Below are positions 43,065-61,575 of a stretch of 64,000 nt of DNA, piece by piece; position 1 is the first letter of the stretch; the number at the start of each line of letters is the position of its first letter. The position numbers and the translations under genes are program-made. Below the pieces are notes generated by a model that saw nothing but the letters and a program-made list of their open reading frames with translations, was not told the DNA's origin and did not search any database. The DNA is from Roseateles hydrophilus. GTDB lineage: Bacteria > Pseudomonadota > Gammaproteobacteria > Burkholderiales > Burkholderiaceae_C. The DNA is taken from the NCBI RefSeq assembly GCF_026712245.1, contig NZ_JAPPUY010000004.1:558001-622000 (forward strand), given 5' to 3'.

Positions 43065-44249
43065 ATGCTGACAGACGCCCAGTGCCGAGCCGCCAAGCCT
43101 AGAGAAGGCATCTACCGCCTCAATGACTACAAGGGGCTGTACCTAGAAATCAAACCCAACGGCATCAAGGCTTGGCGCTATCGCTTCAAGCTCAATGACA
43201 AGGCCTCGTGGTTCGCACTTGGCGACTACCCCAGCGTGACGCTCGGCGAGGCCAGAGAGAAGTGCGAGGCGGCGCGGAAGCTGGTCAGGGAGGGCATCAA
43301 TCCCGTCCAGAATCGCCAGATCGAACGCATCAAGCGCGAACAAGACTCAGCGAACACGTTCGAGGCCGTCGCCAAGGAGTGGCTGGGCCTGAAGGACTGG
43401 GAGGACGTGACCAAAAAGCGACGGCTCGACATGCTGGAGCGCGTGGTCTTCCCGTCGATCGGCAAGCTGCCGGTACGTCAGATCACTCCGGTCCATGTCC
43501 TCGACATTCTCAACAAGACGGTCAAGCGGGGTGCACCAACGGTGGCAGCTGAAGCCAAGCGCACGATGTCTGGCGTGTTCGAGCATGCGGTCGCCACTCT
43601 GCGGGCTGACACTGACCCCGTTTGGCCGGTTCGCAAAGCGCTGCCGCCCAACAAGACGCAACACAAGCGCGCCCTCAGCGCGGAGGAAGTCGGCCAGCTA
43701 CTAAACGACTTTGATGGACATGGTGGCAACTTCCAGACCATCAAGGCCTTCCAGCTCATGTGGCTGACGCTCAGTCGCCCGAATGAGTCCGTCCAAGCTG
43801 AGTGGGCAGAGTTCGACCTGGAAAAGGCGCTGTGGACCATTCCGGCACGTCGGATGAAGGCACGGCGGGAGCACGTCGTTCCGCTACCAAGTCAGGCGGT
43901 CGAACTTCTCAAAGCCATGCATCCGATCACGGGACACACGAAGTTCGTTTTCCCGAACCGCGATGACCGCCAACGCCCCATGGCCGACGCAGCTCTGCGG
44001 CAGGCGCTCAAGAAGCTCGGTTGGGCAACCAAGTACAGCCCACATGGCACTCGCACCACGGGCAGCACACGGCTCAATGAAATGGGCTATCGGCCGGATG
44101 CCATCGAGGCCCAGCTTGCACATGCTGAGCCGAATAGCGTTCGACGCACATACAACCATGCCTCCTATTTGGATGAGCGCAGGTCCATGATGCAGGATTG
44201 GGCGCACAAACTAGACCAATGGAAGTCGATCCACTCCAAAGGCCAATAG
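43065..44249 (+). CDS. int: P4-type tyrosine recombinase / integrase
   Basis: This enzyme integrates and excises the island. The 394-residue protein has the N-terminal DUF4102 arm-binding domain (LTDAQCRAAKP, YLEIKPNGIKAW), a SAM-like middle domain, and a catalytic domain with R238, K265, H327-x2-R330, H353 and nucleophile Y363, all present. AGGAGA precedes the ATG by eight bases. It converges with the radical SAM gene, leaving seven bases between them. It looks functional. Confidence 0.95.
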   Translation: MLTDAQCRAAKPREGIYRLNDYKGLYLEIKPNGIKAWRYRFKLNDKASWFALGDYPSVTLGEAREKCEAARKLVREGINPVQNRQIERIKREQDSANTFEAVAKEWLGLKDWEDVTKKRRLDMLERVVFPSIGKLPVRQITPVHVLDILNKTVKRGAPTVAAEAKRTMSGVFEHAVATLRADTDPVWPVRKALPPNKTQHKRALSAEEVGQLLNDFDGHGGNFQTIKAFQLMWLTLSRPNESVQAEWAEFDLEKALWTIPARRMKARREHVVPLPSQAVELLKAMHPITGHTKFVFPNRDDRQRPMADAALRQALKKLGWATKYSPHGTRTTGSTRLNEMGYRPDAIEAQLAHAEPNSVRRTYNHASYLDERRSMMQDWAHKLDQWKSIHSKGQ

Positions 44250-44256
44250 CTAAACA

Positions 44257-44838
44257 TCACCTTATCAAAAATGGCCAGCCGTTGAAGACCAATCGTCCAT
44301 CATCGCGAATGCGCAACTCCAGCTGTCTTTCCAGAACATCTACGCCTTCAATCGAAGAGTTGTACCGGTCAGTCAGGTAGTGAAATCGCTGGTTTGTTGA
44401 GCCGACCCAGTTTCTTGAGCGGTCTGGGTTCGAGGCTTCGTAGGGACCATCGACAAGCACATCGGTCCACGCCAACAAGCCACGAGTGCCCGGGAGTGAC
44501 AAATCTTTCAGCTCCTGAAGCGTGTAGCCGCTGAACGTCATGACCGACAACCCCGCACGAGATACCGCCTCGGCAACTACAGCAAGTCCCTGCGCCTGAA
44601 GAAATGGTTCGCCACCAAGAAACGTGACCCCCTCCAGACCCCACTCCTCGTGTGCCGCCAGCAAGCGTTCAATCATGGTCTCCGAACTCAGAATGTCACG
44701 TTCCACGATCTTCAGGTAGCCTGGATTGCAACACCCGACACAACGCTTGTCGCAGCCTTGGACCCAGAGTGCCGCACGTCTTCCGGGCCCCTCAACTTCC
44801 GTGCAAGGTATCCATGACGCCAGATTCAACCAAGACAC
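44257..44838 (-). CDS. NrdG-like radical SAM protein (4Fe-4S activase type)
   Basis: The 193-residue protein has the radical SAM cluster motif C29-x3-C33-x2-C36 (GCDKRCVGC) and the SAM-binding GGEP at 75-78, in the compact layout of NrdG/pyruvate-formate-lyase activases. No glycyl radical enzyme is found nearby. It starts with GTG at 44838, four bases after the AAA+ gene, with GGAG about seven bases upstream, so it is the last gene of a coupled operon. The chemistry and substrate are unknown. It may modify a partner protein, nucleotide or RNA. Confidence 0.85.
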   Translation of the reverse strand: MSWLNLASWIPCTEVEGPGRRAALWVQGCDKRCVGCCNPGYLKIVERDILSSETMIERLLAAHEEWGLEGVTFLGGEPFLQAQGLAVVAEAVSRAGLSVMTFSGYTLQELKDLSLPGTRGLLAWTDVLVDGPYEASNPDRSRNWVGSTNQRFHYLTDRYNSSIEGVDVLERQLELRIRDDGRLVFNGWPFLIR

Positions 44839-44841
44839 AGG

Positions 44842-46695
44842 TCACTCCAGCTCGAAGTCGAAGTTCGGTTTAGACCCAGCTTGTACAACCCTAATGGTTC
44901 GACCTTGGGATCTGTCTGGCGAGCCGACCTGACCAAATAGGAACTGAGCTAGTGGGTCGAACAAGTAAATTGTCAGCGCGTTGAGAACACCGCGCCCTCC
45001 GCTGCTTCGATCGACCATGCCAACGATCGACTGCAGCGCCTTGGTCTCGTCAACGAATTGCAGCGCAGAGACTCCCCATTTTTCGCTGAGGCGGTGTCGT
45101 AGTGGCTCGAGCTTCGATCGAGCAATGTCGACGAGAAACTTGTCATCCGCCATAAAGTTGAAGGGGATGATGTTCCCCTCGCCGATACGGCCAAGCAATT
45201 CCGGCCGCTTCAGTTCATTCACAAAGTGCGCACGGACTTTCTCGACAAAGGCTGATCGCGCGTCCGGGTTGCTCGGTTCGATTTGTGCCGCCCCAATGTT
45301 CGACGTGAACACGATAACGGTGTCGGAAAACAGAACGGTATCGCCTTTACCGTCAGTCAGTCTTCCGTCCTCCAGGATCTGAAGAAACTTATCAAGAATC
45401 CTCGGGTGCGCCTTTTCGATCTCGTCGAACAAAAGTAAGGAGAATGGGCGCTTCTTCACTGCATTGGTGAGCTGCCCCCCTTCTTCATAGCCAACGTAGC
45501 CTGGAGGCGCTCCGACCAAGCGCTGATCAGCATGCTCGTGATTGAACTCCGACATATCGAATCGGAGACAGGCCTCATCATCACCGAACAGAAACTGCGC
45601 GAGGGCCTTGGCCAGCTCCGTCTTGCCCACGCCAGTAGGACCGACAAAGAACAATACGCCTTTCGGTGTTCTTTGCTTGCTGGAATGCTGCAGCCCCGAC
45701 AATCCGGTGTATGCCCGAACTAGGATCTGATTAACTGCATCGATTGCTTGATCTTGGCCTTTGACTCGGACTTTCAGTGTCTCGACAGCCTTGCCAAGTT
45801 TGTCCCGGTTTAATTGCTCCCACGGGCTATGGCGTTCACCGTAGCGATACATGCTGACTAACGACTCAGCGCTCATCTTCGGCAACTGGCGCGAAAGCTT
45901 CGCAAGATTGTGAATGTCGCGAAGTGTGAGCCCCTCTAGGGAGTCGACAATATCTGCGAGGACTCGGCTCTTAGGAAGCACTGGCGGCTCAACACTGAGT
46001 ACAGAAGAAAGCTGAAGCACGGCAGCCTCCCGCACGACACGAGATGGCAGGGGGACATTGATTTCTTTGAACAGCGGGTTATTCAGATAGAGCGATGGCG
46101 GCAAGACAGAGAGCCCCTGACACAGGAAGACCATCAGTGTTTGCGGCCTATCTACATCGGCTGGACTGAGCGTAATTTGCGCATCCCTGGTCGCCTTGCC
46201 CATCATCAGCAACCATCCTCTTTCGGCTTCGCTCAAGGCATTGGCTTGTCCAAACAAGAGGTGTGACCAGTCCAAAACGAACGCAACGCGATCTGGACCA
46301 GGCTGCTTCATCAGCCGCGAAACCACCGACAGAAAGTCCTGCGGGGTTACCTCAAGTGAACCCGTGTCCTGAACTTGGCGACTGGGGGCTAGCGGTTCGC
46401 CCATATCGTAGTCTTCTCCTGCCGCAGGAGGCGCAGTGGCAACGGAAGCTGCCGCCAGCTCTCGCCAGGTTCTCGAGTCGACGCCGGAAACTCCTGCAAC
46501 ACGATCCCAGCGGATCACGTGACGATATCCACGCTGCTTGAGAATAGTGTCCACTGCGTCGGGCACGCTCTGCCAACGATCAAGCGAGCTTGGATCAGCC
46601 ACCACATCGACAACATTGCCGTGCAGGATGATCCCTCTCCGAATGCCGCATTCCCGGAGGAAAGCGTCTTGCCAAGATGTTTGTCCAGATGCCAT
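44842..46695 (-). CDS. ClpB/ClpA-like AAA+ ATPase with divergent N-terminal AAA-like half
   Basis: The C-terminal half (from about residue 310) is a Clp-type AAA+ module: Walker A GPTGVGKTEL with K358, GAPPGYVGYEEGG (pore-loop region), Walker B FDEIEKAH with D424 and E425, and FTSNIGA. It probably remodels or unfolds protein complexes. The N-terminal half has GIILHGNVVDVV (residues 21-32), FVLDWSHLLF (139-148) and a lid-like helical end but no Walker A, so it may be an inactive AAA+ copy. The start directly follows the coiled-coil gene stop (TAAATG). The Clp N-terminal domain is missing. Confidence 0.87.
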   Translation of the reverse strand: MASGQTSWQDAFLRECGIRRGIILHGNVVDVVADPSSLDRWQSVPDAVDTILKQRGYRHVIRWDRVAGVSGVDSRTWRELAAASVATAPPAAGEDYDMGEPLAPSRQVQDTGSLEVTPQDFLSVVSRLMKQPGPDRVAFVLDWSHLLFGQANALSEAERGWLLMMGKATRDAQITLSPADVDRPQTLMVFLCQGLSVLPPSLYLNNPLFKEINVPLPSRVVREAAVLQLSSVLSVEPPVLPKSRVLADIVDSLEGLTLRDIHNLAKLSRQLPKMSAESLVSMYRYGERHSPWEQLNRDKLGKAVETLKVRVKGQDQAIDAVNQILVRAYTGLSGLQHSSKQRTPKGVLFFVGPTGVGKTELAKALAQFLFGDDEACLRFDMSEFNHEHADQRLVGAPPGYVGYEEGGQLTNAVKKRPFSLLLFDEIEKAHPRILDKFLQILEDGRLTDGKGDTVLFSDTVIVFTSNIGAAQIEPSNPDARSAFVEKVRAHFVNELKRPELLGRIGEGNIIPFNFMADDKFLVDIARSKLEPLRHRLSEKWGVSALQFVDETKALQSIVGMVDRSSGGRGVLNALTIYLFDPLAQFLFGQVGSPDRSQGRTIRVVQAGSKPNFDFELE

Positions 46696-47829
46696 TTACT
46701 TCTCCCTTGTCATGCCAGGCTGTGGCTTGGCATCGCTGTCCTTGTCATCCGGGTTCTTCCAAATCGTGCGTTCGGTGGAAAGCTGTATTCCATAGATTGA
46801 TTGCAGTCGCGGCAGGACCGTATCAATGTCTTTTTTGCACGCAGACCCGCGATAGTGATCAAACTTGTAATTCAGCTTTCCACTGAGCTCAACCTTGAAC
46901 TCTGCTTGAGCACCAGCGGGACGTTTTCCGCGAATCACTACTTCGTTGGAGCTACCTTCGCGAACGAGTCGAGGCTTTTCCGTGACAAACCCGGCGTCCT
47001 CCAGTGCGCGGTAGACAGCCTGCACAACCTCCCGCCTGCAACTCTCATCAACCACGACAGCATCGAGGTCGCGGGTAACTTCAACCAATCGCTTAGAAAC
47101 ATATTCGGGCGACATCGCGCTGGTTGAATCGAGCAACGATCCCAATGCTTGAGCGCGCTCTGCTGCTCCTCCGCCGACGGATGCGATCTGCTCACGACAA
47201 AATTGCAATGCATCCGCTGACGCACTTTCCTCTGCGGCTTTGGACTCCTTCTCTCTGATCTGCCGAGAGCGCTGCTCGTACTCGGACTTGATCGTCCCAA
47301 TCGCCGTTCGCAGCTCAGCGATCGACGTTCGGCTATTCGCCCCCATCAGGCGTGTCCGCACTTCGGACAGCGCTTTGAAAGCCAATTGTCTGGCCAATGG
47401 GTCGGCCCAACTCGTCAACTCGTCTTGCCACGCGGTTTCCAACTCGTCCCGCACTTTAGCCTCTTGTTCGACTCTACGGCGAGCCTCTTCTCTGGCGGCT
47501 TCTTCGGCTTGGCGTTGTGCTTCGACGTATGCCTGTCTCATTCCGCGTGCATGTCGTGGCAGTGCATGCACCAGTCGCCCCAACTCAATACTGCGGTCAC
47601 GCGCAGCGGCAGGATCGCTCTCGACAAGGCGAGTCAGGCTTGCCAGCTCCTTCTCCAGCTCAGAGAACTCTGCTTGAACATATTCGTTGAGCCCCTGGCT
47701 TTGCACATCCTCAAGAATGCCGCGATATCGAGCGAGGTAAGTGCGAGTCGTTTCTCGAACACGCTGGTTAAAAAGATCCTGACGCCGTTGGCGTTCGATC
47801 TGATAGCGTGCCTCGTCATGTCTGCTCAT
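46696..47829 (-). CDS. coiled-coil protein of unknown function
   Basis: I do not recognise this 377-residue protein. Long charged helices fill residues 1-80 and 95-205, with an Arg/Glu/Gln-rich EAQRQAEEAAREEARRR run typical of a coiled coil. The C-terminal third (about 255-350) looks like a small mixed alpha/beta domain. It probably joins other proteins of the operon. Its ATG overlaps the PIN gene stop and its stop abuts the AAA+ start, so it is coupled on both sides. Confidence 0.8.
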   Translation of the reverse strand: MSRHDEARYQIERQRRQDLFNQRVRETTRTYLARYRGILEDVQSQGLNEYVQAEFSELEKELASLTRLVESDPAAARDRSIELGRLVHALPRHARGMRQAYVEAQRQAEEAAREEARRRVEQEAKVRDELETAWQDELTSWADPLARQLAFKALSEVRTRLMGANSRTSIAELRTAIGTIKSEYEQRSRQIREKESKAAEESASADALQFCREQIASVGGGAAERAQALGSLLDSTSAMSPEYVSKRLVEVTRDLDAVVVDESCRREVVQAVYRALEDAGFVTEKPRLVREGSSNEVVIRGKRPAGAQAEFKVELSGKLNYKFDHYRGSACKKDIDTVLPRLQSIYGIQLSTERTIWKNPDDKDSDAKPQPGMTREK

Positions 47830-50258
47830 TTACGTTTTCCTCCTGCGTCTCGACGTCCTGTCTGATTTGGACTTCCACCCCTGTACTCTTCCGGCAGCAT
47901 GGCAGTGATGTTCTCTGCACGCGCCTTGTTTCTGAAGTTTCTGTCGCCGGTCACCACGATGACGTCACTCAGCCGGAGATAGAGCGCCACCGACAAGATT
48001 CGATTGTCTGCTGATGGCTCCCAGTCTGGCGGCAAAAGATCCAGCACCTCAGACTCGTAGCGAATGGCTTGCCCGGCACGCTCCAAAGAACGAATTGCGG
48101 CCCGAGCCTTCTGGGCTCTTTCCTCTTCGGAAGATTCCTTGATTCCGTCCAGTTCTTCAAGCACGCGTCGGGCAACAACAGGAATGTCGTTTCGACGCAT
48201 GGTAGTGAGCAGATCGGGGGCCAACATCAAGGCATTGGTATCAAGCACGATTAGTCTTTGGCCAGGCGTTGTCGGGTACGCAAGTTTCTGCACTGCCAGT
48301 TCGCGCCATGAACCGACCAACTCATCAAATTGATGAATCGGCAAAAGTGTGTCGCCCGTGAGTGAGCTCCGCATATTAAGAACGTTCTTGCAAGCCTCCT
48401 GCCACTTTGAGACGCTGACCAGAGCAGAAGTCTTCACGCCTTGAAGGCTAAGGCTTCCCTTGGAGGCATCCTGAAGGGATTTCAGGCCAACATCGCGCAG
48501 CACCGCTTGATGAGCGGACCTAATCGCCGTCAGTGGTTGTGAATATGAATGGGGGCCATGAAGGGCCAAACTGGAATCGGCCAGGACTTGGGCGACCCAG
48601 GTCCGCAGAAGCGCATCGCCAATCACGGCATCAGGCAGGGGTAGTGATGGCCCGACAGCTCTGCGGAGCGATTCCAGCGACTCGGTATCAGAAATCGGAC
48701 GGCAGTGCTTCAAAAGAGCAGATTTGATCTCATCCGACTGATTTGGCATCAGCCGATCGACTTCTGCGAGATAGCCCAAGACCTCGGCGAGATCAATATC
48801 ATCTGTCAAGCGCTCGATCGCCGACATCAGGCGGTCCGCCAAGGCACTAAGCCAGCCAGCTCGCCAATCATCTCCAGCGTCGGGTGAAAAGCGCTCCAGC
48901 GCGGTAATGAAGTCAGCGGCGTCTGTGAGCAACTCGCCGATAGGCAATGCCTCGACTCGCGATCGCCAGCGCAGAATGGTTTCCTGTGGCGCTTCCCACA
49001 GCGAAGCGATCGCATAGACGTCAGCAGGCTGTGCCGAACTTAAGGCGGCACTCAACTCGGTCTGCACAGTATCCCAAACACGCGCGCTGGAACCTTTCTC
49101 GGCGGTCAGCGTGAGCACTGCACGACGCTCCTGGCCCGCCCAAAAGACTCGCGACGATCCAGTCATTCGCACCTCTGGTGCGTGATCGTCTTTGCGAAGC
49201 ACCAATCCGTCGAATCCTGTCGGCAGATCCGATGGCGGAGCCATTTCAAGCCAGATCGTTCCCTTTTGAGATGGCAGCCGACGAAGGCCGTGATCTACAC
49301 CTTTGAACAGGGCCGTCAGTCGCTGGAATACATGACCATCTTTCTTCAGCAGAACGATGTCTTCGCCACTGTGATTTCCCAACTGCTCCTCATCAACCAG
49401 CACGCGCAGCGCTACTCTCGAAGTGGTCACCTTGTTACGATCCACTGGAGAGTCTGCGCCCTGCGGAGCAATCGCAACAGCACTGCGGATGCTTGCTTCA
49501 CTGAGCGCTGGCCAGTCGGGAGCGGCCTCACTGGCGAGGATTGGCTCTAGAACGTGCTCCCAGATCACTTCGGGATTTGCCGCTGCTAGCCATCGCTGAA
49601 AGTCAGGCGCCCCCTTCGCGCTGACAGCAAGCACGCCTGACTCATCACACTCCAGCGTGACTTGATGCTGCTCCCAAGCAACTCCGACAACTTGGGGTTG
49701 AACGGAGTGAATCTCAGTATTCGGCGTTCTCCAAGCATGCCGCTCTTTTTCGACTGACTCCCGAACCAACGCGGAACAATCGGAAGGCTCAAGCACTGCA
49801 CCTGCGATGAACGGACGGCTAGGTGATCTTGATAGCCGATTTTCACTTCGATGAGGCTTGATCGAATTGGAAAGCGGAAAATACAAGTGCGATACGGTCG
49901 TTTGCTGAGACCGGCTAGGCAAACGATCTCGCTCGAGAAATGTCACGCCATCGGCAGTAAGCGCAAGCTCTGCGAGCCGAAGATCCATATAGTCTTGCGA
50001 TGTTGGGCCGCTCAAGACGCCCATGTAGATCAGATTTTCAACGCTTGGCCCGACCAGTTCATTGGCCGAAGCCACACCTAGTTGATTCTCAAAAATCTGA
50101 GACAGCGTCATGTCAGAGAGCCCCGGGGTCGCCCGATAGCTACCGCATAGCTTCATTACCGTCCGCTCAAATACTGTCGGCGTGCGCACGGTCTGGTACG
50201 TCACCTCCGACTCCACTTCGTAAAGCGGCATGCCGACAGAGAAAGAACCCAACTTCAT
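47826..50258 (-). CDS. large protein with C-terminal PIN nuclease domain
   Basis: The 810-residue protein ends in a PIN domain of the PIN_4/PhoH-associated type (about 665-800): LIVLDTNALML with D673, VLEELDGIKE with E701/E702, DNRILS with D751, and VTGDRNFRNKA with D772. The four acidic metal ligands of an active ribonuclease are all present. The N-terminal 110 residues look like a winged-helix fold (TLSQIFENQLG, LALTADGVTFL). The middle 550 residues are unrecognised. Both ends overlap neighbours by four bases. RNA cleavage is a reasonable inference but unproven. Confidence 0.85.
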   Translation of the reverse strand: MKLGSFSVGMPLYEVESEVTYQTVRTPTVFERTVMKLCGSYRATPGLSDMTLSQIFENQLGVASANELVGPSVENLIYMGVLSGPTSQDYMDLRLAELALTADGVTFLERDRLPSRSQQTTVSHLYFPLSNSIKPHRSENRLSRSPSRPFIAGAVLEPSDCSALVRESVEKERHAWRTPNTEIHSVQPQVVGVAWEQHQVTLECDESGVLAVSAKGAPDFQRWLAAANPEVIWEHVLEPILASEAAPDWPALSEASIRSAVAIAPQGADSPVDRNKVTTSRVALRVLVDEEQLGNHSGEDIVLLKKDGHVFQRLTALFKGVDHGLRRLPSQKGTIWLEMAPPSDLPTGFDGLVLRKDDHAPEVRMTGSSRVFWAGQERRAVLTLTAEKGSSARVWDTVQTELSAALSSAQPADVYAIASLWEAPQETILRWRSRVEALPIGELLTDAADFITALERFSPDAGDDWRAGWLSALADRLMSAIERLTDDIDLAEVLGYLAEVDRLMPNQSDEIKSALLKHCRPISDTESLESLRRAVGPSLPLPDAVIGDALLRTWVAQVLADSSLALHGPHSYSQPLTAIRSAHQAVLRDVGLKSLQDASKGSLSLQGVKTSALVSVSKWQEACKNVLNMRSSLTGDTLLPIHQFDELVGSWRELAVQKLAYPTTPGQRLIVLDTNALMLAPDLLTTMRRNDIPVVARRVLEELDGIKESSEEERAQKARAAIRSLERAGQAIRYESEVLDLLPPDWEPSADNRILSVALYLRLSDVIVVTGDRNFRNKARAENITAMLPEEYRGGSPNQTGRRDAGGKRK

Positions 50259-53200
50259 CGCTGATTACCTCGATTGCCGTTGCTGGGTCGCGGCGTGAAC
50301 TTGCGCTGACCAGGGTTATCGTTTCGCATGAGTCGGCTCGCTGGAATCAGACGGGCGTCTCTATCCAGCTGATCGAGAATGTCCTTATAGACCGTGCGTG
50401 TCGTTGAGCCCTCTCGATCCATATGCGGTAGCGTTACCTCATATGACTCGTACATACTTCTTGCACCAAAAACAATCAGTAGCTCCTGCGCTCGAGAGAA
50501 GGCTACGTTGATGAACTCGTATCGTGCGACATTCGCACGGCTAGACCTGCGCCTTGCCATTCCCTGACTTCTGGTATCGATTCCGTCATTGCGAACCAGA
50601 CTAACCAGGATGATTGGCTTCTCCTTGCCCTGATACCGTATTACGGTGTTGACCTCTACATCCAGGCATTCGAATCGCCCGGAAGGTTTGACCGCACGGA
50701 TCGCCTCGCGGATTAACCTACATTGACGCGCGTAGAAGGAAACAACGCCGACTTGACGCCGCTTTTGAGGTGAATATCCAAGAAGGGCGCTCTGCTTGTC
50801 GAGTTGAAGCAGTGTGTGGGCAATCAACTGTGCTTCGAGGCGGTTGCTGCGCGCAGGTTTACCGGCTGCGTCCATGTCCTCTTTGTGGATCTGCCCTTCC
50901 AGATTGCGAGATGTATCCACCCACAGGACGTGGTCACCCTCGTGAGCGACTTTCTCTTTTTCTTCACGAGGAATTTCTGACGACGGCAAACTGATGTTTT
51001 TGGGAATTCGATTGCCCTCGCCGTCAAGCGCGGGCTTGATGATGGTCTTCCCATCCGCGTCGACCAGCACCAGTCCATGATTTCGATCGAAATTTGGGAA
51101 CGCTAGCCCGCAGGTCAGGCGGCGCTCATAGAAATGGTTCACCATCGTCATGATCTGCGGATGCATACGGAACTGAACCTCGAGGCGTGCGCGGATCGCA
51201 TCGTCGGCCGCTTCAAAGTGCGACTTGAACAAGGATGCCGTAACCATCTTTTCAAATCGGAGGAGGTTCAGCCGCGTCAAGGCCGTTCGACTCTCTTGCT
51301 CGTCTTGCTCCGCTTCGTCAACAACATCGCTGAATGTCTGGGCATCTGCCCCCTCCTGAAACAGTGGCGGAAGCTGACGGTGGTCACCCACCAAGATCGA
51401 GCGCCGCGCCCGCATTAGGGGCAGCAGCATCTCCAGAGGAGTCGCCTTGCTGACTTCATCGATGATCGCAACGTCAAAACTTACCTGGCCAGAGTCTTCG
51501 AGCGTTTGTTCACGTTCATTGCATGTGATGGCGACGACGTTGCACTGCGGCACATAGACTTCTTTGAAGTGCTCCCAGTCAGACTGGGCTGATGCAGGCC
51601 TGCGAAGATCATTCACCCAGTCTTGGAGCAGTTGCCCCCAGACATACTGCTCATCCTTCTGATTTTGTATTTGTTCCTCCAGCGTGCGGGCCTCGCCCTG
51701 GCGAACCAAGATTTCTTGACTGAGCATGGCAGCGACATCGACCTGTTTGTCGTTCGCGGAGCTTTCTGCTGCCTGCGCAAGAAAAAGCTCTGATGCACGG
51801 GCAAGGGAACTTGTCAGAGACTGATTTACCCTCGGCTCTGTCCTGATGTGCTGCTCGAGCTCCTGTTCACGCTGCCGCCACTCAGATTCATCGATTTCCG
51901 GAACCTCACAGAGATCAATGAGCCTGTGCACCTCTGCAATCAGTCGTTCCAAAGCCTGATCAATGGCCGCATTGCTGGTACGCAATGCGGCCAAACGATC
52001 GGCAAGCTCTGCGCCGACCTGTTCTGCGTTGTCTATGGCGGCACACCAGCGATCAGCGTCCACGAAGAGATCGCTGTACAGATCTGCACTCAGCCCACCG
52101 GCAGAACTGTTTCGAAGTTGCTTGATCTCCTGTCGCTTGGCTCTCCAGGCCGAGACCAAGCTATCGTCATCGTCAACCCGCTCAGCCAGGGCCTTTTCTT
52201 CTGCCTCCAGTTCCGCAATGCGAATAGCCACATCAGGACTTTGTAGAGATCGGGGCCCCGCCGCATACAAGCGAGCCACATCTCTCTCCAGTTCCGGTTC
52301 ACGTGTCCTCAACTTGCGCCAACACCTCACCAGTCCTGCAAGCATTTGAGGACGTTGTTGTGGCACGGCGTCCCAATCGGCCTTCGAGACCGGGAGCTTT
52401 GTTCGCGCTGCCGTCAACCCGAAGAGGCTGAAAGCTAGCTCTGATGACAGTGGTTCAGGCAGCGGGCACCCATCTGCAACATCCTCTTCGCCTGTCACCA
52501 AGAATTCCCTTAGGGTCGAAAGGCGGTTCCGCTTTCGTTTCGCGTCCTCGTGCTTCTGTGCCTGCTCCTGCAGCCTTTGCCAGGCCAAGTCTCTCTCAAG
52601 CTTTGCCCGGACACGACCTTGCTCATATAGATCAACACCTCTTTGTGCTTCGACAATGTCGCGGCGCACATATTCGGCTCTGTTCAGCCAGGACTGAAGC
52701 TGGCTCATCCGATCGGCAGTTTCACGCCAAGGCTTCAAGAATCGGTCGCTCGCATGCTCCGCCAGGGATGAGTAATACCGGGACAAAGCCGCTTGCTGGA
52801 CAAAGGACTTTCCATCACCAGAGACTTTATCCAGGTCGCGTGCTAAACGAATGACCCGCAAATCAGGATGCTTGCCGAGCCGTTCTAGAGCGTTGTCAAC
52901 GGCCGTGTGGGCTTGACTGGCCAGCAGTACGCGCTCACCGCGACGGGCCAATTGCATGATGGCTTCTGCGATCACGGTTGTCTTCCCTGTACCCGGCGGC
53001 CCTTGAATCAGGCACAGGTCAGGCGCGGTCAAGATCTTCTCGACTGCATCTTTCTGGAACGGGTTCAGATCATCTCGGAACCAGTGCGTGATCGATTCTT
53101 TGGCTGAAGGCTTCTTAGCTTGTCGGGCATCAAACAGGTAGGAGGAGAGGTAAGGGGCATAGCCTCCCTGATCTTGCAAGCGCTTGATCGCCATTTCATG

Positions 53201-54199
53201 GCGGCGAATCAAAGCAAGATCACCCGCAGCCGATACGGACAAGAACCCTTGCTCGGGGATTCTGGAAAGGATCATCTGGCGAATGTTTGCCAAGTCTTCC
53301 GCAACTGTTAGCTGATTCTGGTCGTCTTCAGAGAGAGCAACCACGACTTCAGCGAGGTGTGGCTCATTCCATTCGCAGTCCTTGATCTTGTCCTTGTGTG
53401 GAGCGATCTTCGCCATCGCCTCAGGTTGGCCGAGCTCAAAACCTCTCGGAGCACGCTTTGCCCCTTCCCGATCGCTGATTCGAAAGGTCCAGGGATCGAC
53501 AGACACATTAAGGTCAAATGCCATCACGTCTTGACGTGAGAGCGACCGATGAACTTCACGCAGGGACTGCTCGCTCTCGCCAATCACTCTGAAGACGATC
53601 CTGTCCTCTTGCCACTCGCGCTGAATGAACCTCAACCCACGGGTTTTCTCCGACACGAGCTTGCGCTTCCACTTCAGGAATTCGGTCCAATCGACCAGTT
53701 TCTCCCGGGTGGTGATTGAAATGGGAGGTAGCTCGAATGCCAACTCGCGGGTCAAGGCATTGTTGTTGCGTTGGATTCGTGGCAGCTGCGGGTTGTCCTG
53801 ATACACCACCACCGAAAGGCTGCGCTCGTAGCTGTGCCCAGGCGCATCAGCGACTTCAAACAAGTCCTGAACCATGAACACAGGGCTGGGAACGCGAGTC
53901 GGCCAGAAGCCCCTTACCGCCAACGAACATCCCCTGGGAAACGGCCAGGGCTGCTCCGGGTTGATGACCGGGCGAAGAGCAAGGCTCAAGTTATCGTCAG
54001 GGCGGTTCTCGATACTGAGGTTTGCCGCGTAGTACTCCATCGGCAGGCCATGTGGGAAAAGCAAATTCAACATCCCCTCGATGCGATCGCCCCCAGTGAG
54101 GAAGTCCCGGAGCTGAGGATGTCGGCGAGCCAGTTCTCCTACCGTGCGCGAAACGCGTTCGCGATTTCTGTCGTCAACCCATATGTACAGATTGGCCAT
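50255..54199 (-). CDS. SF1 UPF1/DNA2-like helicase with long helical insert
   Basis: This 1314-residue helicase has Walker A GPPGTGKTT with K406, the DEVS Walker B form with D914/E915, GDHRQLPPLF, QFRMHPQIM, TVIRYQGKEKPIILVS and NVAFSRAQELL. About 440 residues between the first two motifs are mostly charged helix, probably coiled coil. The N-terminal 350 residues are unknown. The ATG at 54199 follows GGGAGGA by 12 bases, and a TTG at 54208 is an alternative. It opens the five-gene operon. RNA or DNA could be the substrate. Confidence 0.9.
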   Translation of the reverse strand: MANLYIWVDDRNRERVSRTVGELARRHPQLRDFLTGGDRIEGMLNLLFPHGLPMEYYAANLSIENRPDDNLSLALRPVINPEQPWPFPRGCSLAVRGFWPTRVPSPVFMVQDLFEVADAPGHSYERSLSVVVYQDNPQLPRIQRNNNALTRELAFELPPISITTREKLVDWTEFLKWKRKLVSEKTRGLRFIQREWQEDRIVFRVIGESEQSLREVHRSLSRQDVMAFDLNVSVDPWTFRISDREGAKRAPRGFELGQPEAMAKIAPHKDKIKDCEWNEPHLAEVVVALSEDDQNQLTVAEDLANIRQMILSRIPEQGFLSVSAAGDLALIRRHEMAIKRLQDQGGYAPYLSSYLFDARQAKKPSAKESITHWFRDDLNPFQKDAVEKILTAPDLCLIQGPPGTGKTTVIAEAIMQLARRGERVLLASQAHTAVDNALERLGKHPDLRVIRLARDLDKVSGDGKSFVQQAALSRYYSSLAEHASDRFLKPWRETADRMSQLQSWLNRAEYVRRDIVEAQRGVDLYEQGRVRAKLERDLAWQRLQEQAQKHEDAKRKRNRLSTLREFLVTGEEDVADGCPLPEPLSSELAFSLFGLTAARTKLPVSKADWDAVPQQRPQMLAGLVRCWRKLRTREPELERDVARLYAAGPRSLQSPDVAIRIAELEAEEKALAERVDDDDSLVSAWRAKRQEIKQLRNSSAGGLSADLYSDLFVDADRWCAAIDNAEQVGAELADRLAALRTSNAAIDQALERLIAEVHRLIDLCEVPEIDESEWRQREQELEQHIRTEPRVNQSLTSSLARASELFLAQAAESSANDKQVDVAAMLSQEILVRQGEARTLEEQIQNQKDEQYVWGQLLQDWVNDLRRPASAQSDWEHFKEVYVPQCNVVAITCNEREQTLEDSGQVSFDVAIIDEVSKATPLEMLLPLMRARRSILVGDHRQLPPLFQEGADAQTFSDVVDEAEQDEQESRTALTRLNLLRFEKMVTASLFKSHFEAADDAIRARLEVQFRMHPQIMTMVNHFYERRLTCGLAFPNFDRNHGLVLVDADGKTIIKPALDGEGNRIPKNISLPSSEIPREEKEKVAHEGDHVLWVDTSRNLEGQIHKEDMDAAGKPARSNRLEAQLIAHTLLQLDKQSALLGYSPQKRRQVGVVSFYARQCRLIREAIRAVKPSGRFECLDVEVNTVIRYQGKEKPIILVSLVRNDGIDTRSQGMARRRSSRANVARYEFINVAFSRAQELLIVFGARSMYESYEVTLPHMDREGSTTRTVYKDILDQLDRDARLIPASRLMRNDNPGQRKFTPRPSNGNRGNQR

Positions 54200-54208
54200 A
54201 ACAAACAA

Positions 54209-54322: not shown

Positions 54323-57300
54323 TCAGTCCTTCACGGCCACCCGAGTTGCCCCACCGTGCTGCGTAACCCTGGGTCTGCACCGAAGCTTGACGGCCCCTTT
54401 GGAAAACGACTCATCCGTCGCCTTGCTTGACCACACATAAGCCTCTCCGGCTTTCAGCAGGGCCATGCGCTCTGGCGTCAGGTTGCCGAGTGCGGCGTTG
54501 GCTTTCTGGATGTGCTTTAACCAAGCAGGCGAATTGAACTTGTGCATGATGATCTGGCTGGACAGCTCGATCAGGCTGACAGGCACAGATGGTGGGTCTT
54601 GGCTTGCGACCATGATGCTGACGCCCTTGTGCCGCATCTCTCGGACCACTTCGATGAGCCCGGCAACCAGGTCGGGACTCTCGATGTATTTGTGGGCCTC
54701 ATCGAACACCACCAGCTTGTTGAAGCTGCGCCCATCGATGCGCGCATCTGCGAACAACTGCAAGAGCACGACGAACAGTCCGAGGGCTTCGTCCTTCTCG
54801 ATGAATTCGTCCCGCAGGTCCACGATGATCAGTCGGCCTGGCCTCACCACCTCAGTGAGCGAGGTTCCGTCGTTGATGTACTCAGCGGCCAGGTCGAGGC
54901 GCATCCGAGCCAGCTCCTTGAGGTGATCGGGGACCGACGATGCATCGATGCCTGCACGCAAGCCCTCAAGGGTGATGTCGTCGCGCATCGCCTTCATGAT
55001 GCGCATGATCTGGCGGATGTAGGTGGCCTGATTGCCCACGGCACCCATCAAGAACTTCCAGTGCGAAGCTTTCAGCTCTGATGCCGAGAACTGCAAAGGC
55101 CGCACTTCGATGTCGGGGTACTCGGCCTGACGCTCTTGGATCTTGTCGGCTGGCACGAGAAGCAAGACATCCGCGAGCGCCTTCGGCTCCGCGCCATACA
55201 CTTCCTTCAGCGCACGAACCTGATCCTCCACCGAGTTCGCCCCCACCATCGACGTGAACTCGGGCTTGTAGTCCATCGTCGGGCTGTAGTGGAAGATCAC
55301 CGTGGACAGCGGCTCGGGAAGGCAGTTGATACCAGGGATCGGCAGCGAAGCCATCTCTGCCACGCTACCCAAGGTGTAGCTCTTGCCGCCGCCCTGAACG
55401 CCGAACAGGCTGATGGTGTGGGTCTGATTGAGGTCGAGTGCCACCTTGCGCCCAGACACCTCGCCAATCAGGCCGTACTGCGGTGTTGCTCCCGTGGCAC
55501 CGAGCATGATGTCGTAAGCCACGCGGCTATCGGTAGCCTCGGCATCTTGAGTCTGCGGCCGTGTAACCGACGCACTCTGGGGAGCCTCCTCCGCCGCAAC
55601 AAGAATCGATGCAGGCGCCTGTTCCGCAACCGCAACCGCATCAGCACTCGGCTCGTCTGCTGGCGGTGGTGGCGTGTCAGTGCTTGCAGCCAGCACGGAG
55701 CCAACTTGCGGAGGAGCCACCTGCACCAAGGCGGCGGGTTCCGGCTCCCTCACGGGCACGCTGGAAACCACCTCATGCTGCGCGTACCTGACCCTCGGAC
55801 TGTCGTCCCACGCGAGTGTTCGATCCCGTGGCGGGCTGAGGAAGGCTGCCGTTTCAAAAGTAGGAACGGCAGGCGCCAATTCCCTGCGACGAAGCAGTTC
55901 TTGCGTGACCTCTCGCGCTGTGTCGGCAGAGCGCGCGTACTGGACGCTAGCCACCGTTTCAGTGTCCGTCACGGCCGATTCCACCAACTGCCGAATCAAA
56001 TCACTACCGATCCGATAGAACTCGATGCCGTTTTCATGCTCGGCGGGCTCAGTACCTGGCTTGCTGAAGTCAAACACCACGGCACTTCGTGTGAACTGAA
56101 GGGTGTAAGGCCGCTCATCAAGGCGTCGCAGGAAGTAGTGCGCCTCTTCGGCGGCTTCTGGCAAGACCACGCCGTAGCGCTCGGATCGGTCTAGGTAGAA
56201 GCCCAGCAGTGCAGCAAGATCGCGGTTCTTGATGGGGCGGTCAGGCCGATCTACGTCAGCCATCCTGGGGTCGAAGTGATAGGCCAGGACGTGCTCGGAC
56301 TGAGCGATCTGGTCAGCAATGGAGGCTTTCAACTGCGCGTAGGCAGCCACATCACCTACTTGGCTGTAGCACTTCACTTCGACCAGCCGACATGTCACCA
56401 CACGGCTTGCTGGGTCGAGGTCGAACAGGGCAAGGTCAGTCCGACGGAAGCTGACTTCATCGCCCATTTCCTCAGCGCTTTGCTTCAACGCCTTGTACAA
56501 CTCCAAGTGCGCGTCCAACGGCACGACGACCTGGTTCTGGAAAACGCCTTGGTGTTCGAGGAACAAACGCGAGAGCGCCAAGCCCATCGCCTCGGCCCGC
56601 TGGGATGAAGAGGACAGCAGCTTCAAGGCCAACCGTCCGGACAACGATCGAAGCTGATCCAGCATCACCAAGGCGTGTCGGCCCGTATTAGGCAGCCCGT
56701 AGTCCCCCAAGATGGGAATCAGCAACGACTCAAGCTCAGCAACGGAGCGCGAGGTGATCGCCAATCGATGGCTCATGGCGCTCGCCATGTCGGGCGAGTG
56801 GTCGATCAGATAGTCTGGCCGCGTGGCATGGCGACGATGGTCGAAGAACTCGATCCCCAAGTTCCGATCAATCGTAAGCACCCAATCACTGACCTCATGA
56901 ACCTGATGAAGCATGGCACGCTCGTCTGCCGACAGGCTCAGCGCCACAACAGGGCGCGCATGCGGCAGGTATTGACTGCGAGCAACGGTCGCCACTGCGA
57001 CCGAGACAGCACGGGAAACACCCCCCATGAGGTCGGATAACGCCTCTGCTCCCTCCAGCGGCTGCGCCGCGCCATGAAGCGGACGACGCAGCCAAGTGAT
57101 GGACTGCTCGTCTTCCAGATAGTCCACTTCGAAGGGCTGAACCAGACCATGGACAAACGAAGAGTCGTCACTGTCCTGAACATCAACTGCTCGAATTTCC
57201 TCAGCAGGGAACAAGTCGAACAAGAAGGACAGATGCGCCGCATGTAATTCCGGATCGTCACGGAATTCCTTGATCGCACGAATGGCCAGTCGCAGCTTGG

Positions 57301-59905: not shown

Positions 59906-61575
59906 GCGCGCGCTCCTTCGTTTCGTTCTGCAATCGTGTAGCGCGGCACCACGGTCTGGGTCACGTAGGCATCAGACAAATCTCGATAGAAGCCAATCTC
60001 ACGGAGGCGTCCGGTGAATGCCTGCACATTGCTGCGCAGTGCCTTCCGTTCGTCGATGGTCGGAGCGCTGAACCCCTCACCGGGCGGCAGCTGATCGATG
60101 TAGAGCCCATAACGTTCACGCAAGAACGACAGCAAGTCGTCGATCCGCATCTCGCCGGTGAAGTAGCCTTGGTCCCCACCGGGTCGCAATACTGCGATCT
60201 GCAGCAACACTTCCAGCAGGCGACTCTCCAGCACAAATCGTCGAGGTGCGTTCCGCGCGCGGGTCTGCGCAAGCAGCGCCCCCGACTTGTTCTTCAACAT
60301 CGTCGCGTCCAGAGACTCGATGATGTACTTCCGATGGAAGGCACCACGCAGAGCCACCAAAATCTCGATGTAGGTCTCGAAGTCCGAGAGCCCCATCTTT
60401 GTGATGGCCTCGACTTCTGCGTCAAGCCCCGCGTCACCCTCAGACAAGGATTCCAGCAGCCCGGCCAGCCGCTCACCAAAGAACTTGTCCCGCTCTTCCG
60501 CGAACGGCTCTCCTTGCAGACCGTAGAGTTCACCGACCGAGAACACGGAATTCAAGGGCCGGATCAGTTTCCCTCTCCGAACGAGGTGCTCAGAAAATTC
60601 GTCTAGCTTCTTGGCGACGAAGTACGCTCGCACAAAGCTAGGAATGCGCCGGTAGTAGCCATCTGCGCTGCGCTCTGCCAGCGCTGCTGTAGAGGACTCT
60701 GAGCTCCCCGACAGATCAACGAACAAGCTGAGCTTGTAGGGGCAGTCCCCCTGAGGCTCGCGTTGCTCGCGGGGCTTCATAGGGCATGCCGATTCAGCGC
60801 ACAGCGAGTTGGCGCCCTCCAGCTTTTGCCAGGCAGGCAGCAGCTTCAGCAGGCGAAGGTGATACAGCGCCAAGTGGAACGACAACAGCACCTTCAGGTA
60901 CTCCACCATCACCGAGCGCGGCATGAAGGGCTTGTAGAACAGCAGTCGCTGAATGTCCTCGGCCATCAGATCGGCTGAGCCGATGCATACAGGCGCGAAC
61001 CGGTCTCCGCCCGCGCGCGTGTCCGCCGTGTCCTTCCTCTGAGACAGAAAGTGCAGCAGCGTCGCTGTCTCAATGTCTGTCAGCGCCTTGTCGTTCAGCT
61101 CTCTTGTGAGCTTGTCGAACCCGTCGAAGAAGAAGCCTTTGAGATGCTCGATCGCCTTGTGGCCGGCGAGGTGGCGCGCGTGGTGCAGCATCTGGTAAAG
61201 ATGCTGTGCAGCCCCGTAGTCACGCGAGTGCTTCGGATTGCGAAAGCGATAGGTATAGCCATGCAGCGGTCGCGGCCCTGCCACGGCGGCGTTTTTCTTA
61301 CCTCGGTTCACGATGTCCATCAGGTGGGTTTCCACCCAGCGTTCCACCATGTCCCGGTGCTGAGTGAAGCCCAAGAACTTGTCGCTGGCATCCAGGATGT
61401 CATCAACGAACTTGTCCACCGTCAGCTCGCGCTTGTCGCGGAAAACACTCGGATAGCCCCCATGCTCCAGCCGCTCGAACAAGCCCGTGAGCACCCGATC
61501 CATCTCGATGGTCTTGAAGTCGAGATAGCTGATCTTCGGGAGTCGGAATTCCCTGTCCTTTTTCTGCAATGCCAT
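59902..61575 (-). CDS. mad7: methylation-associated defence protein MAD7
   Basis: This 557-residue protein has no catalytic motif I recognise. It is mostly helical, with an unusual cysteine patch near residues 265-285 (LCAESACPMKP, GDCPYKL) that could bind metal. Name and role rest on its position between the kinase/ATPase and MAD8 genes and its length. The ATG shares one base with the MAD6 stop and the stop overlaps the MAD8 start. The C-terminal 120 residues (PTIDERKAL and following) might be a winged-helix or nuclease-like fold, but I cannot support either. Confidence 0.75.
   Translation of the reverse strand: MALQKKDREFRLPKISYLDFKTIEMDRVLTGLFERLEHGGYPSVFRDKRELTVDKFVDDILDASDKFLGFTQHRDMVERWVETHLMDIVNRGKKNAAVAGPRPLHGYTYRFRNPKHSRDYGAAQHLYQMLHHARHLAGHKAIEHLKGFFFDGFDKLTRELNDKALTDIETATLLHFLSQRKDTADTRAGGDRFAPVCIGSADLMAEDIQRLLFYKPFMPRSVMVEYLKVLLSFHLALYHLRLLKLLPAWQKLEGANSLCAESACPMKPREQREPQGDCPYKLSLFVDLSGSSESSTAALAERSADGYYRRIPSFVRAYFVAKKLDEFSEHLVRRGKLIRPLNSVFSVGELYGLQGEPFAEERDKFFGERLAGLLESLSEGDAGLDAEVEAITKMGLSDFETYIEILVALRGAFHRKYIIESLDATMLKNKSGALLAQTRARNAPRRFVLESRLLEVLLQIAVLRPGGDQGYFTGEMRIDDLLSFLRERYGLYIDQLPPGEGFSAPTIDERKALRSNVQAFTGRLREIGFYRDLSDAYVTQTVVPRYTIAERNEGARA

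Follow-up and report, generated by a model that had tools for sequence, protein, structure and literature searches.

In the CoCoNuTs, type IV restriction systems for which an RNA target has been predicted, UPF1-like helicases are found with coiled-coil proteins and nucleases, and the text of the paper describing them makes no mention of radical SAM, ClpB or NrdG (PMC11090510). The NTP-dependent conflict systems of Kaur et al. 2020 have a chaperone-like NTPase pair as a switch (the cores being MoxR-vWA and DO-GTPase-GAP1) with exchangeable effectors that include a superfamily-1 helicase with PIN, and radical SAM is named there once, for FtsH ternary systems (PMC7159879). MkoA of the Mokosh system is the closest known helicase to that of the locus described here, a five-gene cassette which an earlier note had read as possibly an undescribed defence system, a reading that is partly supported by our analysis.

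A coupled cassette of five genes

The window (the whole stretch of 64,000 nucleotides of Roseateles hydrophilus DNA that was analysed) carries five coupled open reading frames on the minus strand at 44257-54199, and their extent, as given in the earlier note, proved exact to the base, with junctions as described (two ATGA overlaps, an abutting TAA/ATG and a 3-base gap ahead of the GTG of gene 5). They encode a UPF1/IGHMBP2/DNA2-like superfamily-1 helicase of 1314 amino acids (gene 1, 50255..54199; Pfam, PADLOC and PDB matches), an 810-amino-acid protein with a C-terminal PIN nuclease domain (gene 2, 47826..50258), a helical protein of 377 amino acids with a conserved C-terminal domain (gene 3, 46696..47829, hereafter CC), a two-domain ClpB-like AAA+ protein of 617 amino acids (gene 4, 44842..46695) and a 193-amino-acid NrdG-like radical SAM protein with a GTG start (gene 5, 44257..44838). 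The longest helicase reading frame starts with TTG at 54208, and the alternative ATG at 54199 was preferred because similarity to Zoogloea sp. 1C4 begins there. Pfam confirmed the domains that had been claimed (AAA_11/AAA_12 helicase, PIN_4, AAA_2 and Fer4_12/Radical_SAM), and the residues proposed for single-site mutation, K406, D673, K358 and C33, are all invariant members of active-site motifs. Promoter-like sites were rarer than in shuffled sequences (2 against a shuffle mean of 5.0) and terminator candidates were near the mean of the shuffles (18 against 14.1), so that neither scan gave a usable signal.

The integrase and the known defence module said to flank the cassette are both real. 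A tyrosine integrase gene on the plus strand (43065..44249; Pfam Phage_integrase, 2e-24, with an arm-binding domain) is convergent with the cassette, 7 bases separating the two, and on the other side PADLOC and NCBIfam identified a MADS module on the minus strand at 54323..64000 (mad8 54323-59905, mad7 59902-61575 and the 3' part of mad6 from 61575), of which mad2-mad6 extend beyond the window edge. A search for attachment repeats gave just one 14-base inverted match, taken as chance.

Recurrence and mobility

The same five genes, in the same order and strand, were found in ten loci from eight divergent lineages (the window and two Zoogloea; Moellerella, Polaromonas, Photobacterium, Acinetobacter and Leisingera plasmids; and two further genomes). 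The genes are not dispersed: among ten plasmid records with the CC protein, all five examined, including one of six from Moellerella, carry the complete set, as do the two further genomes detected by the CC profile, and the remaining five Moellerella records gave matches to the helicase, PIN, CC and AAA proteins. Identities between lineages fall as low as 19% (for the PIN protein) with the catalytic residues invariant, and dN/dS values of 0.07-0.21 between near relatives indicate purifying selection on the cassette genes, which together with the ten loci of identical order shows that the set is more than a chance association. Identity matrices for seven loci were correlated between genes, most closely for helicase and AAA (r 0.96) and helicase and PIN (0.95) and least for CC and radical SAM (0.51). 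The AAA and radical SAM proteins of genome G328 are far closer to those of the window (69% and 78% identity) than are its helicase (49%), CC (39%) and PIN (28%) proteins, arguing that the two halves of the cassette are exchangeable.

Distribution is patchy: among 399 genomes of the order 3 carry the cassette, and among 20 of the genus just 1 (the present genome included). No relative was found in viral contigs with the CC profile (14 pattern matches), the best 80 of 559 viral loci from an AAA alignment match only within residues 211-612, mostly as general Clp ATPases, and among the phage records none of 119 reaches 80% coverage of the AAA protein. By DNA-level comparison, no locus in any of 5,426 E. 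coli genomes covers 80% of the Moellerella AAA gene.

The Zoogloea sp. 1C4 copy is 95-97% identical to the window in DNA across genes 1-4 and 91% across gene 5, with similarity setting in at the helicase ATG, fading over the final 16 bases of gene 5 and flanked by unrelated sequence. This nearly identical cassette adjoins BREX rather than MADS, showing that the cassette is mobile as a unit and is not a part of MADS. The five genes might otherwise have been taken for an extension of the MADS system which adjoins them in the window and in Zoogloea ramigera, as the cassette lies 123 bases downstream of mad8 on the same strand, Z. ramigera is arranged alike, and G130 has, some 3 kb from its cassette, an SspH-like protein that also matches mad8 (6e-47, compared to 4e-61 for SspH). 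However, the 1C4 locus has no mad8 in the 6 kb upstream and no MADS gene is annotated at the five plasmid loci (PADLOC having been run on part of the flanks), and of the mad1-mad8 models mad8 is the only one to match any of the five cassette proteins, around the P-loop (helicase 1e-7, AAA 2e-3; PADLOC). MADS was rejected as a required partner, an extension of MADS is extremely improbable, and the cassette is independent of the adjoining module. The integrase has a 97% identical counterpart in the same place in Z. ramigera and no match at the 1C4 locus, where the available sequence runs no more than about 300 bases past gene 5.

The other cassettes have different neighbours: BREX and DarT in Acinetobacter, SspF in Polaromonas, the SspH-like gene in G130, a Fic/SoFic-like gene in G328 and PDC-S26 in Moellerella. 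In Photobacterium the only such neighbour is a weak NsnC match (1e-12), and beside the Leisingera cassette, where two flank proteins were scanned, no known defence gene was seen. The cassette is thus mobile, patchy and close to known defence systems, as defence systems in general are, and its genomic context supports a defence role. Recurring in fixed order beside different antiviral systems in distant bacteria, it looks like an unnamed mobile defence unit. That it is not chiefly antiviral but instead serves plasmids and islands as a stability or competition module, in addiction or the exclusion of rivals with the PIN protein as toxin, would suit the integrase beside the window copy and the plasmid location of five of the eight lineages, although these five came from a search of plasmids. 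We consider this improbable given that no small antitoxin gene is present among the five, that the cassette comprises 10 kb of conserved enzymes, and that it lies repeatedly near BREX, MADS, Ssp and other defence genes.

The helicase and PIN proteins

The helicase (core at about residues 378-1247, 50459-53068) matches AAA_11 (7e-39) and AAA_12 (5e-30) in Pfam, and its K406 and D914-E915 are invariant in eight loci. Its best PDB matches are SMUBP-2 (5e-26), DNA2 (8e-25) and UPF1 (2e-15), and as it is about equally close to the first two and less so to the third, its sequence is compatible with either RNA or DNA as substrate. The PADLOC MkoA profile matches it at 6e-101 over the helicase part, and two relatives at 8e-93 and 1e-99.

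The PIN protein is the fastest evolving of the five (19-34% identity between the window and six other lineages). Its PIN_4 domain (3e-19; residues 670-787, 47898..48251 as derived from residue numbers) contains four acidic residues, D673, E702, D751 and D772, that are among just 15 positions invariant in seven sequences; the L031 gene, read as two overlapping reading frames, was omitted from this alignment. PIN domains are found in toxins and DNA nucleases too, and the best PDB match of the PIN profile is the PIN domain of EST1A/SMG6 (5e-8), two names for one protein, which cuts RNA in nonsense-mediated decay. A single-sequence structure model of the whole protein was of low confidence (mean pLDDT 38.8).

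The CC, AAA+ and radical SAM proteins

For the CC protein no Pfam family reached its cut-off and the profile gave no PDB match with E up to 1. A single-sequence AlphaFold model (pTM 0.40) has long helices to about residue 217, of which only the N-terminal ones are good (ten-residue mean pLDDT >90 for residues 11-120). Its C-terminal domain (residues 246-377, 46699..47094) also occurs directly upstream of the AAA gene at one cyanobacterial, one mycoplasmal and two other proteobacterial loci.

The AAA+ protein (Pfam AAA_2, 6e-50) has a degenerate AAA domain as its N-terminal half, for which the profile matches a VCP-like ATPase (1e-4), and an intact ClpB-type ring domain as its C-terminal half. 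Walker A, Walker B and the pore-loop GYVG are retained at all eight loci, at each of which the N-terminal half is without Walker A. ClpB disaggregase, in comparison, has two active AAA domains, and the NCBIfam model for it scores 262 bits against a cut-off of 1232, only the second ring domain being matched (1e-77).

The radical SAM protein (Fer4_12 5e-31, Radical_SAM 1e-8) has a CxxxCxxCC cluster, with C29, C33, C36 and C37 invariant at eight of eight loci, and a GGEP motif. It scores 86.9 bits for NrdG, below the NCBIfam cut-off of 126.1, and the cassette has no NrdD and, by Pfam, no glycyl-radical family. The NrdD of this genome is encoded elsewhere, on a different contig where a weak NrdG match (1e-4) immediately follows it, and a role for gene 5 as a housekeeping ribonucleotide-reductase activase was therefore rejected. 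It could be supposed that the protein makes a small antiviral nucleotide, as prokaryotic viperins do, and that the other genes form a separate system, for which there is a weak similarity to the pVip profile (window 1e-4, Photobacterium copy 4e-8). The viperin model, however, reaches only 17.4 bits against a cut-off of 180, far below the NrdG score, and the radical SAM gene stands immediately after the AAA gene in the eight cassettes laid out and adjoins it in 7 of 16 sibling loci, so that this proposal is very improbable.

Related loci with other effectors

Relatives of the AAA and radical SAM genes pair with different effectors in other bacteria. The radical SAM gene is present at 10 of the 16 other AAA loci. 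It gave no match at six. Limited sequence may account for three of these, since L036 begins within AAA itself and L131 and L135 are complete contigs only 8-10 kb long, but no such excuse applies to L015, L033 and L034. In Aristaeella, Rhizobium, G762, G255 and G942 both relatives share a locus with a ProA/Hhe-type DUF4011 helicase, the related helicase of L013, L032 and L132 carries an MTES_1575 restriction-type nuclease as a fusion, and a decayed mycoplasma relative has, between helicase and CC domain, a DUF4145/HEPN-like domain (2e-4; 21.6 bits, just under the cut-off of 23.1) with an RNxxxH motif. Neither half of the PIN protein found a match in any of 18 sibling loci (best E 0.27), and a likeness seen by eye between a short mycoplasma reading frame and the N-terminus of that protein was not supported by this search. 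AAA and radical SAM, in some cases with the CC C-terminal domain, thus make up a wider module that is paired with other effectors. The weak AAA matches L038 and L039 (27-28 bits) and the CC match in G562 (3e-4, coiled-coil part only) were omitted from the counts, and plasmid AAA matches H22-H24, H26-H28 and lower and phylum matches G1001 (4e-9) and G1090 (7e-4) lie outside them.

Proposed function

On balance we favour the cassette being a mobile, self-contained antiviral system in which the helicase and PIN proteins act on RNA under the control of the CC, AAA and radical SAM proteins, its defence role being suggested by genomic context and its mechanism by protein families. The UPF1/MkoA-like helicase and the PIN protein would be the acting arm. 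Like UPF1 and SMG6 in the RNA surveillance of eukaryotes, the helicase would load on foreign nucleic acid, RNA most probably, and the PIN domain would cut RNA at the helicase site. Through the CC protein, the ClpB-like AAA+ ring may remodel or reset the helicase-PIN complex, so that the nuclease is kept silent or released; CC is a plausible link to the ring as its C-terminal domain adjoined the AAA gene wherever it was found. The product of the radical SAM gene, which immediately follows that for AAA, may modify a component or substrate of the complex.

The sequence support for an RNA target is that the PIN domain is nearest to SMG6/EST1A. The same defence cassette could act on DNA, the helicase being a DNA2-like translocase that works on phage replication intermediates and the PIN domain a structure-specific DNA nuclease (compare Hachiman), since DNA2 is almost as close to the helicase as SMUBP-2 and the MTES_1575 nuclease fused to the three helicase relatives is expected to cut DNA. 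The PIN_4 and SMG6-type matches, in contrast, indicate RNA, and the domain of the mycoplasma relative, although just below its cut-off, is of an RNase type, and we regard DNA as an unlikely substrate. Returning to RNA, it is possible, and we suggest it tentatively, that this is a bacterial RNA-surveillance immunity resembling nonsense-mediated decay, in which a UPF1-type helicase and an SMG6-type PIN nuclease are held or released by an unfoldase (AAA+ with a CC adaptor) dependent on radical SAM modification. The CC, AAA and radical SAM proteins would then be an exchangeable, undescribed control core, shared wholly or partly by defence systems of proteobacteria, Bacillota, cyanobacteria and mycoplasmas whose effectors are quite different.

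Comparison with known systems

No NCBIfam model reached its cut-off for any cassette protein and PADLOC gave a strong match for the helicase only (MkoA). The earlier note knew of no named system with this set, and the five families together were likewise absent from the described systems in NCBIfam, PADLOC and the literature on the set or its parts, as searched.

Mokosh (MkoA/MkoB, MkoC) shares the logic of a helicase with a nuclease, and PADLOC could well label the cassette helicase MkoA. However, the N-terminal part of MkoA, apparently kinase-like from the matches of its profile to kinase regions, is absent from this helicase (no kinase match with E up to 0.1), and none of the five proteins matches MkoB, which the same library does find in Cyanobacterium HL-69, whose Mokosh-like pair includes the sole plasmid helicase with E below 1e-40 outside the cassettes. 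The cassette has instead a PIN domain and three additional genes. In Pfam the window helicase matches neither DUF4011 nor a kinase nor MTES_1575, and it falls far short of the ProA/Hhe models (53.1 bits against 1500 for ProA, and 33.6 against 2000) and of the PLuB helicase-like model (150 against 999). What brings the ProA/Hhe-type helicases and the PADLOC candidate PDC-S37 near to the cassette is that such helicase loci contain AAA and radical SAM relatives. Of Dodola, DolB matches over part of a protein (3e-19) and DolA has no match.

The CoCoNuTs are alike in that coiled-coil proteins and nucleases accompany a UPF1-like helicase, but the cassette lacks the McrC family of CoCoNuT/McrBC and its AAA protein is of AAA_2/ClpB type rather than the McrB-type AAA_5 (4e-9). 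The conflict systems resemble it in general plan, but it has no vWA or DO-GTPase match in Pfam. With eukaryotic UPF1 and SMG6 it shares the helicase family and the type of PIN domain, a resemblance limited to parts, with no sign of common descent as a pair. If protective, the cassette would enlarge the list of known defence systems by one of five genes and would be, by the searches made here, the first to couple a UPF1/Mokosh-type helicase and PIN nuclease to an unfoldase and a radical SAM protein, making it testable how a strong RNase stays harmless without a classical antitoxin and why non-viperin radical SAM enzymes occur in defence loci, and the shared AAA and radical SAM module predicts more systems built on this logic around other effectors.

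Recurrence and mobility of the cassette

The five minus-strand open reading frames at 44257-54199 (genes 1 to 5, encoding an SF1 helicase, a PIN protein, the coiled-coil protein CC, an AAA protein and a radical SAM protein) and their junctions matched the earlier note's description, and the helicase start it proposed, ATG 54199, was upheld by alignment to Zoogloea sp. 1C4, since similarity begins at that ATG. On its question whether the five genes recur together elsewhere, plasmids of all five organisms read (one record each from Moellerella, Polaromonas, Photobacterium, Acinetobacter and Leisingera) carried helicase, PIN, CC, AAA and radical SAM genes in this order on a single strand. A tblastn search of 72,556 plasmid records with the PIN protein matched 10 (6 Moellerella, Polaromonas, Photobacterium, Acinetobacter and one Aeromonas, the last confined to the PIN part and covering 16% of the query); CC also matched 10 (6 Moellerella, Polaromonas, Photobacterium, Acinetobacter and Leisingera), and the helicase, at E < 1e-40, found these 10 CC-positive records and one Mokosh-like locus. 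In searches of whole genomes, the CC profile was found in 1/20 genomes of the genus (its own), in 3/399 of the order (its own, G328 and G130) and, among 369 of the class, in its own with one weak coiled-coil match besides. Both G328 and G130 hold the whole cassette, the G130 PIN gene as two overlapping ORFs, and two Zoogloea genomes hold near relatives in addition.

Identity to the window across seven other lineages was 31-49% for the helicase, 32-44% for CC, 45-69% for AAA and 47-78% for radical SAM, and 19-34% across six lineages for PIN. In G328 the AAA (69%) and radical SAM (78%) proteins are far closer to those of the window than are the helicase (49%), CC (39%) and PIN (28%), a sign of exchange between two cassette halves. 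Values of dN/dS (helicase 0.09-0.11, PIN 0.12-0.21, CC 0.14-0.16, AAA 0.07, radical SAM 0.12) show that all five genes are under purifying selection.

The Z. ramigera cassette lies between mad8/mad7 on one side and an integrase on the other, as in the window, whereas in 1C4, whose DNA is 95-97% identical to the window in genes 1-4 and 91% in gene 5 (first 566 of 582 bases), WYL, BrxF and BrxC (BREX) genes lie upstream in the opposite direction, and the ~300 bases downstream are unrelated to the window, with no integrase match where that of the window begins. By this comparison, the defence system that adjoins the cassette varies within a single genus, and the limits of the unit coincide with those of the five genes. 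In Z. ramigera NBRC 15342 the PIN gene is broken near codon 200 by two contig ends (the end of L004 and the start of L003) with 8 bases in common, as after an insertion-sequence hit, the remaining four genes being open. A scan of the rest of the window (1-43000, otherwise listed for ORFs) found no tRNA genes.

The defence genes seen near the cassette, partly by PADLOC on chosen flanking proteins, were MADS in the window and Z. ramigera, BREX in 1C4, BREX and DarT within 10 kb in Acinetobacter, PDC-S26 in Moellerella (where annotation also shows ardA, an anti-restriction gene, and a piece of HsdS), SspF (2e-227) at ~8.5 kb in Polaromonas, an SspH-like protein (4e-61) at ~3 kb in G130, and Fic (PDC-S04/SoFic) adjoining the helicase in G328. 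On the Photobacterium flank, a protein annotated as HsdR N-terminal has no PADLOC match, and there is a weak NsnC match; no known defence gene was seen beside the Leisingera cassette, where the PADLOC scan covered two flank proteins. The mad6 product of the window (61575-64000; L029:1575-5750) has 1391 aa, against the 659 positions of the PADLOC model, and resembles SspF in its C-terminal part. Additional genes annotated as radical SAM adjoin the Photobacterium (L007:7661-9729) and Acinetobacter (L008:21097-23079) cassettes.

Predicted functions of the five proteins

The closest solved relatives of the helicase are SMUBP-2 (5e-26), DNA2 (8e-25) and UPF1 (2e-15), and its nearest defence model is MkoA of Mokosh (6e-101, covering the helicase part). 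Gene 2 has a C-terminal PIN_4 domain, and its six-sequence profile gave EST1A (SMG6) as top solved relative (5e-8); all four PIN acidic residues are among 15 invariant positions in an otherwise fast-changing protein. Judging by these families and invariant acids, helicase and PIN would form the acting arm. The SMG6-type match favours RNA as its probable target, as does, weakly, a DUF4145/HEPN-like domain (2.2e-4, below cut-off) between the helicase and CC domain of a decayed mycoplasma locus.

CC is a helical protein whose C-terminal domain is conserved and matches no known family. Gene 4 combines a degenerate AAA domain, with a VCP-like profile match (1e-4), and an active-looking ClpB-type ring domain, the pore loop GYVG and Walker motifs being present in 8/8. 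IGF-type tripeptides mark ClpP binding; in a scan, 6/8 of these proteins had none and 2/8 had a single one within the first half, so that nothing points to a ClpP partner. Gene 5 encodes an NrdG-like protein that has CxxxCxxCC and scores below the NrdG cut-off, and no glycyl-radical family was found among the Pfam families of the five proteins. C331 in the CC C-terminal domain aligns across eight cassettes, is missing from the cyanobacterial and G765/G920 relatives, and is a possible candidate for the radical SAM target. The residues the earlier note chose for mutation (K406, D673, K358 and C33) all lie within invariant motifs.

A wider AAA and radical SAM module

Relatives of the AAA gene gave 18 non-cassette loci, five on plasmids and 13 from an AAA N-terminal profile (8/369 genomes of the class and 9/398 of the phylum, own counted in both; two phylum hits were left out of the loci read). 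Sixteen were counted, two with weak AAA matches alone being set aside; L011 and L013 are almost the same Rhizobium locus, and L131 and L135 belong to one genus. A radical SAM match occurred in 10/16 (7 directly beside the AAA gene, 3 at ~2-9 kb), a helicase match in 7/16, the CC C-terminal domain in 4/16 and a PIN match in 0/16. These helicases resemble those of the cassettes at shared-motif level (1e-7 to 1e-14), with the exception of the mycoplasma (2e-39); those of Aristaeella, Rhizobium, G255, G762 and G942 are DUF4011-type, and the Rhizobium, G255 and G762 proteins are fusions that also contain a kinase and an MTES_1575 nuclease. This suggests that the helicase-nuclease parts may be exchangeable.

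The iterated CC C-terminal profile reached proteins of a cyanobacterium (L014), a mycoplasma (L015) and G765/G920, all encoded directly upstream of the AAA gene, in loci that AAA itself had brought in. Among 396 phylum genomes searched without that preselection, the domain occurred in 3, beside AAA in 3/3, all three among the profile rows. CC may thus serve the AAA ring as an adaptor, and their linkage suggests that AAA and CC would form the control part.

Several of these loci have features of their own. That of Mesomycoplasma hyorhinis (L015:3455-11340) is a decayed relative with helicase, unknown protein, DUF4145/HEPN-like domain (RNxxxH), the C-terminal domain of CC and a disrupted AAA gene, in which no radical SAM match was found. 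Operons at L013:9650-19746, L032 and L132 join AAA and radical SAM to a giant kinase-DUF4011-helicase-MTES_1575 protein (in L013 matching PADLOC candidate PDC-S37, 9e-139), and look like a sibling defence system. An Aristaeella lactis plasmid (L012:1-16999) encodes, in a single run, a DUF4011 helicase resembling ProA (1017 of 1500 bits) together with Ser/Thr kinases, an FHA-zinc ribbon protein, radical SAM, AAA and a phosphatase; a literature search did not find the source paper of the NCBIfam name 'anti-phage protein ProA'. The G765 pair of CC and AAA genes (L131:4669-6624) has as its neighbour the gene of a Mu-like prophage I protein, and a phage may therefore carry this form. An FGE-sulfatase gene, a part of other conflict systems, and a kinase lie near an AAA-radical SAM pair (L133:1120-9934), and the AAA gene at L014:3731-11980 lies near a double-GTPase gene, likewise such a part according to the text available of PMC7159879.

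Comparison with known systems

The five-gene set is not described in the text available of PMC7159879, PMC12458937, PMC11090510, PMC10853773, PMC11514479 or PMC10250203, nor in the literature searched, which lay mostly outside subscription journals, and it may be named elsewhere; in the libraries searched it has no name. The cassette is real, conserved and mobile and, as a prediction, very probably a defence system. Of the known kinds, Mokosh-like helicase-nuclease defence comes closest; the cassette uses another nuclease and adds three genes.
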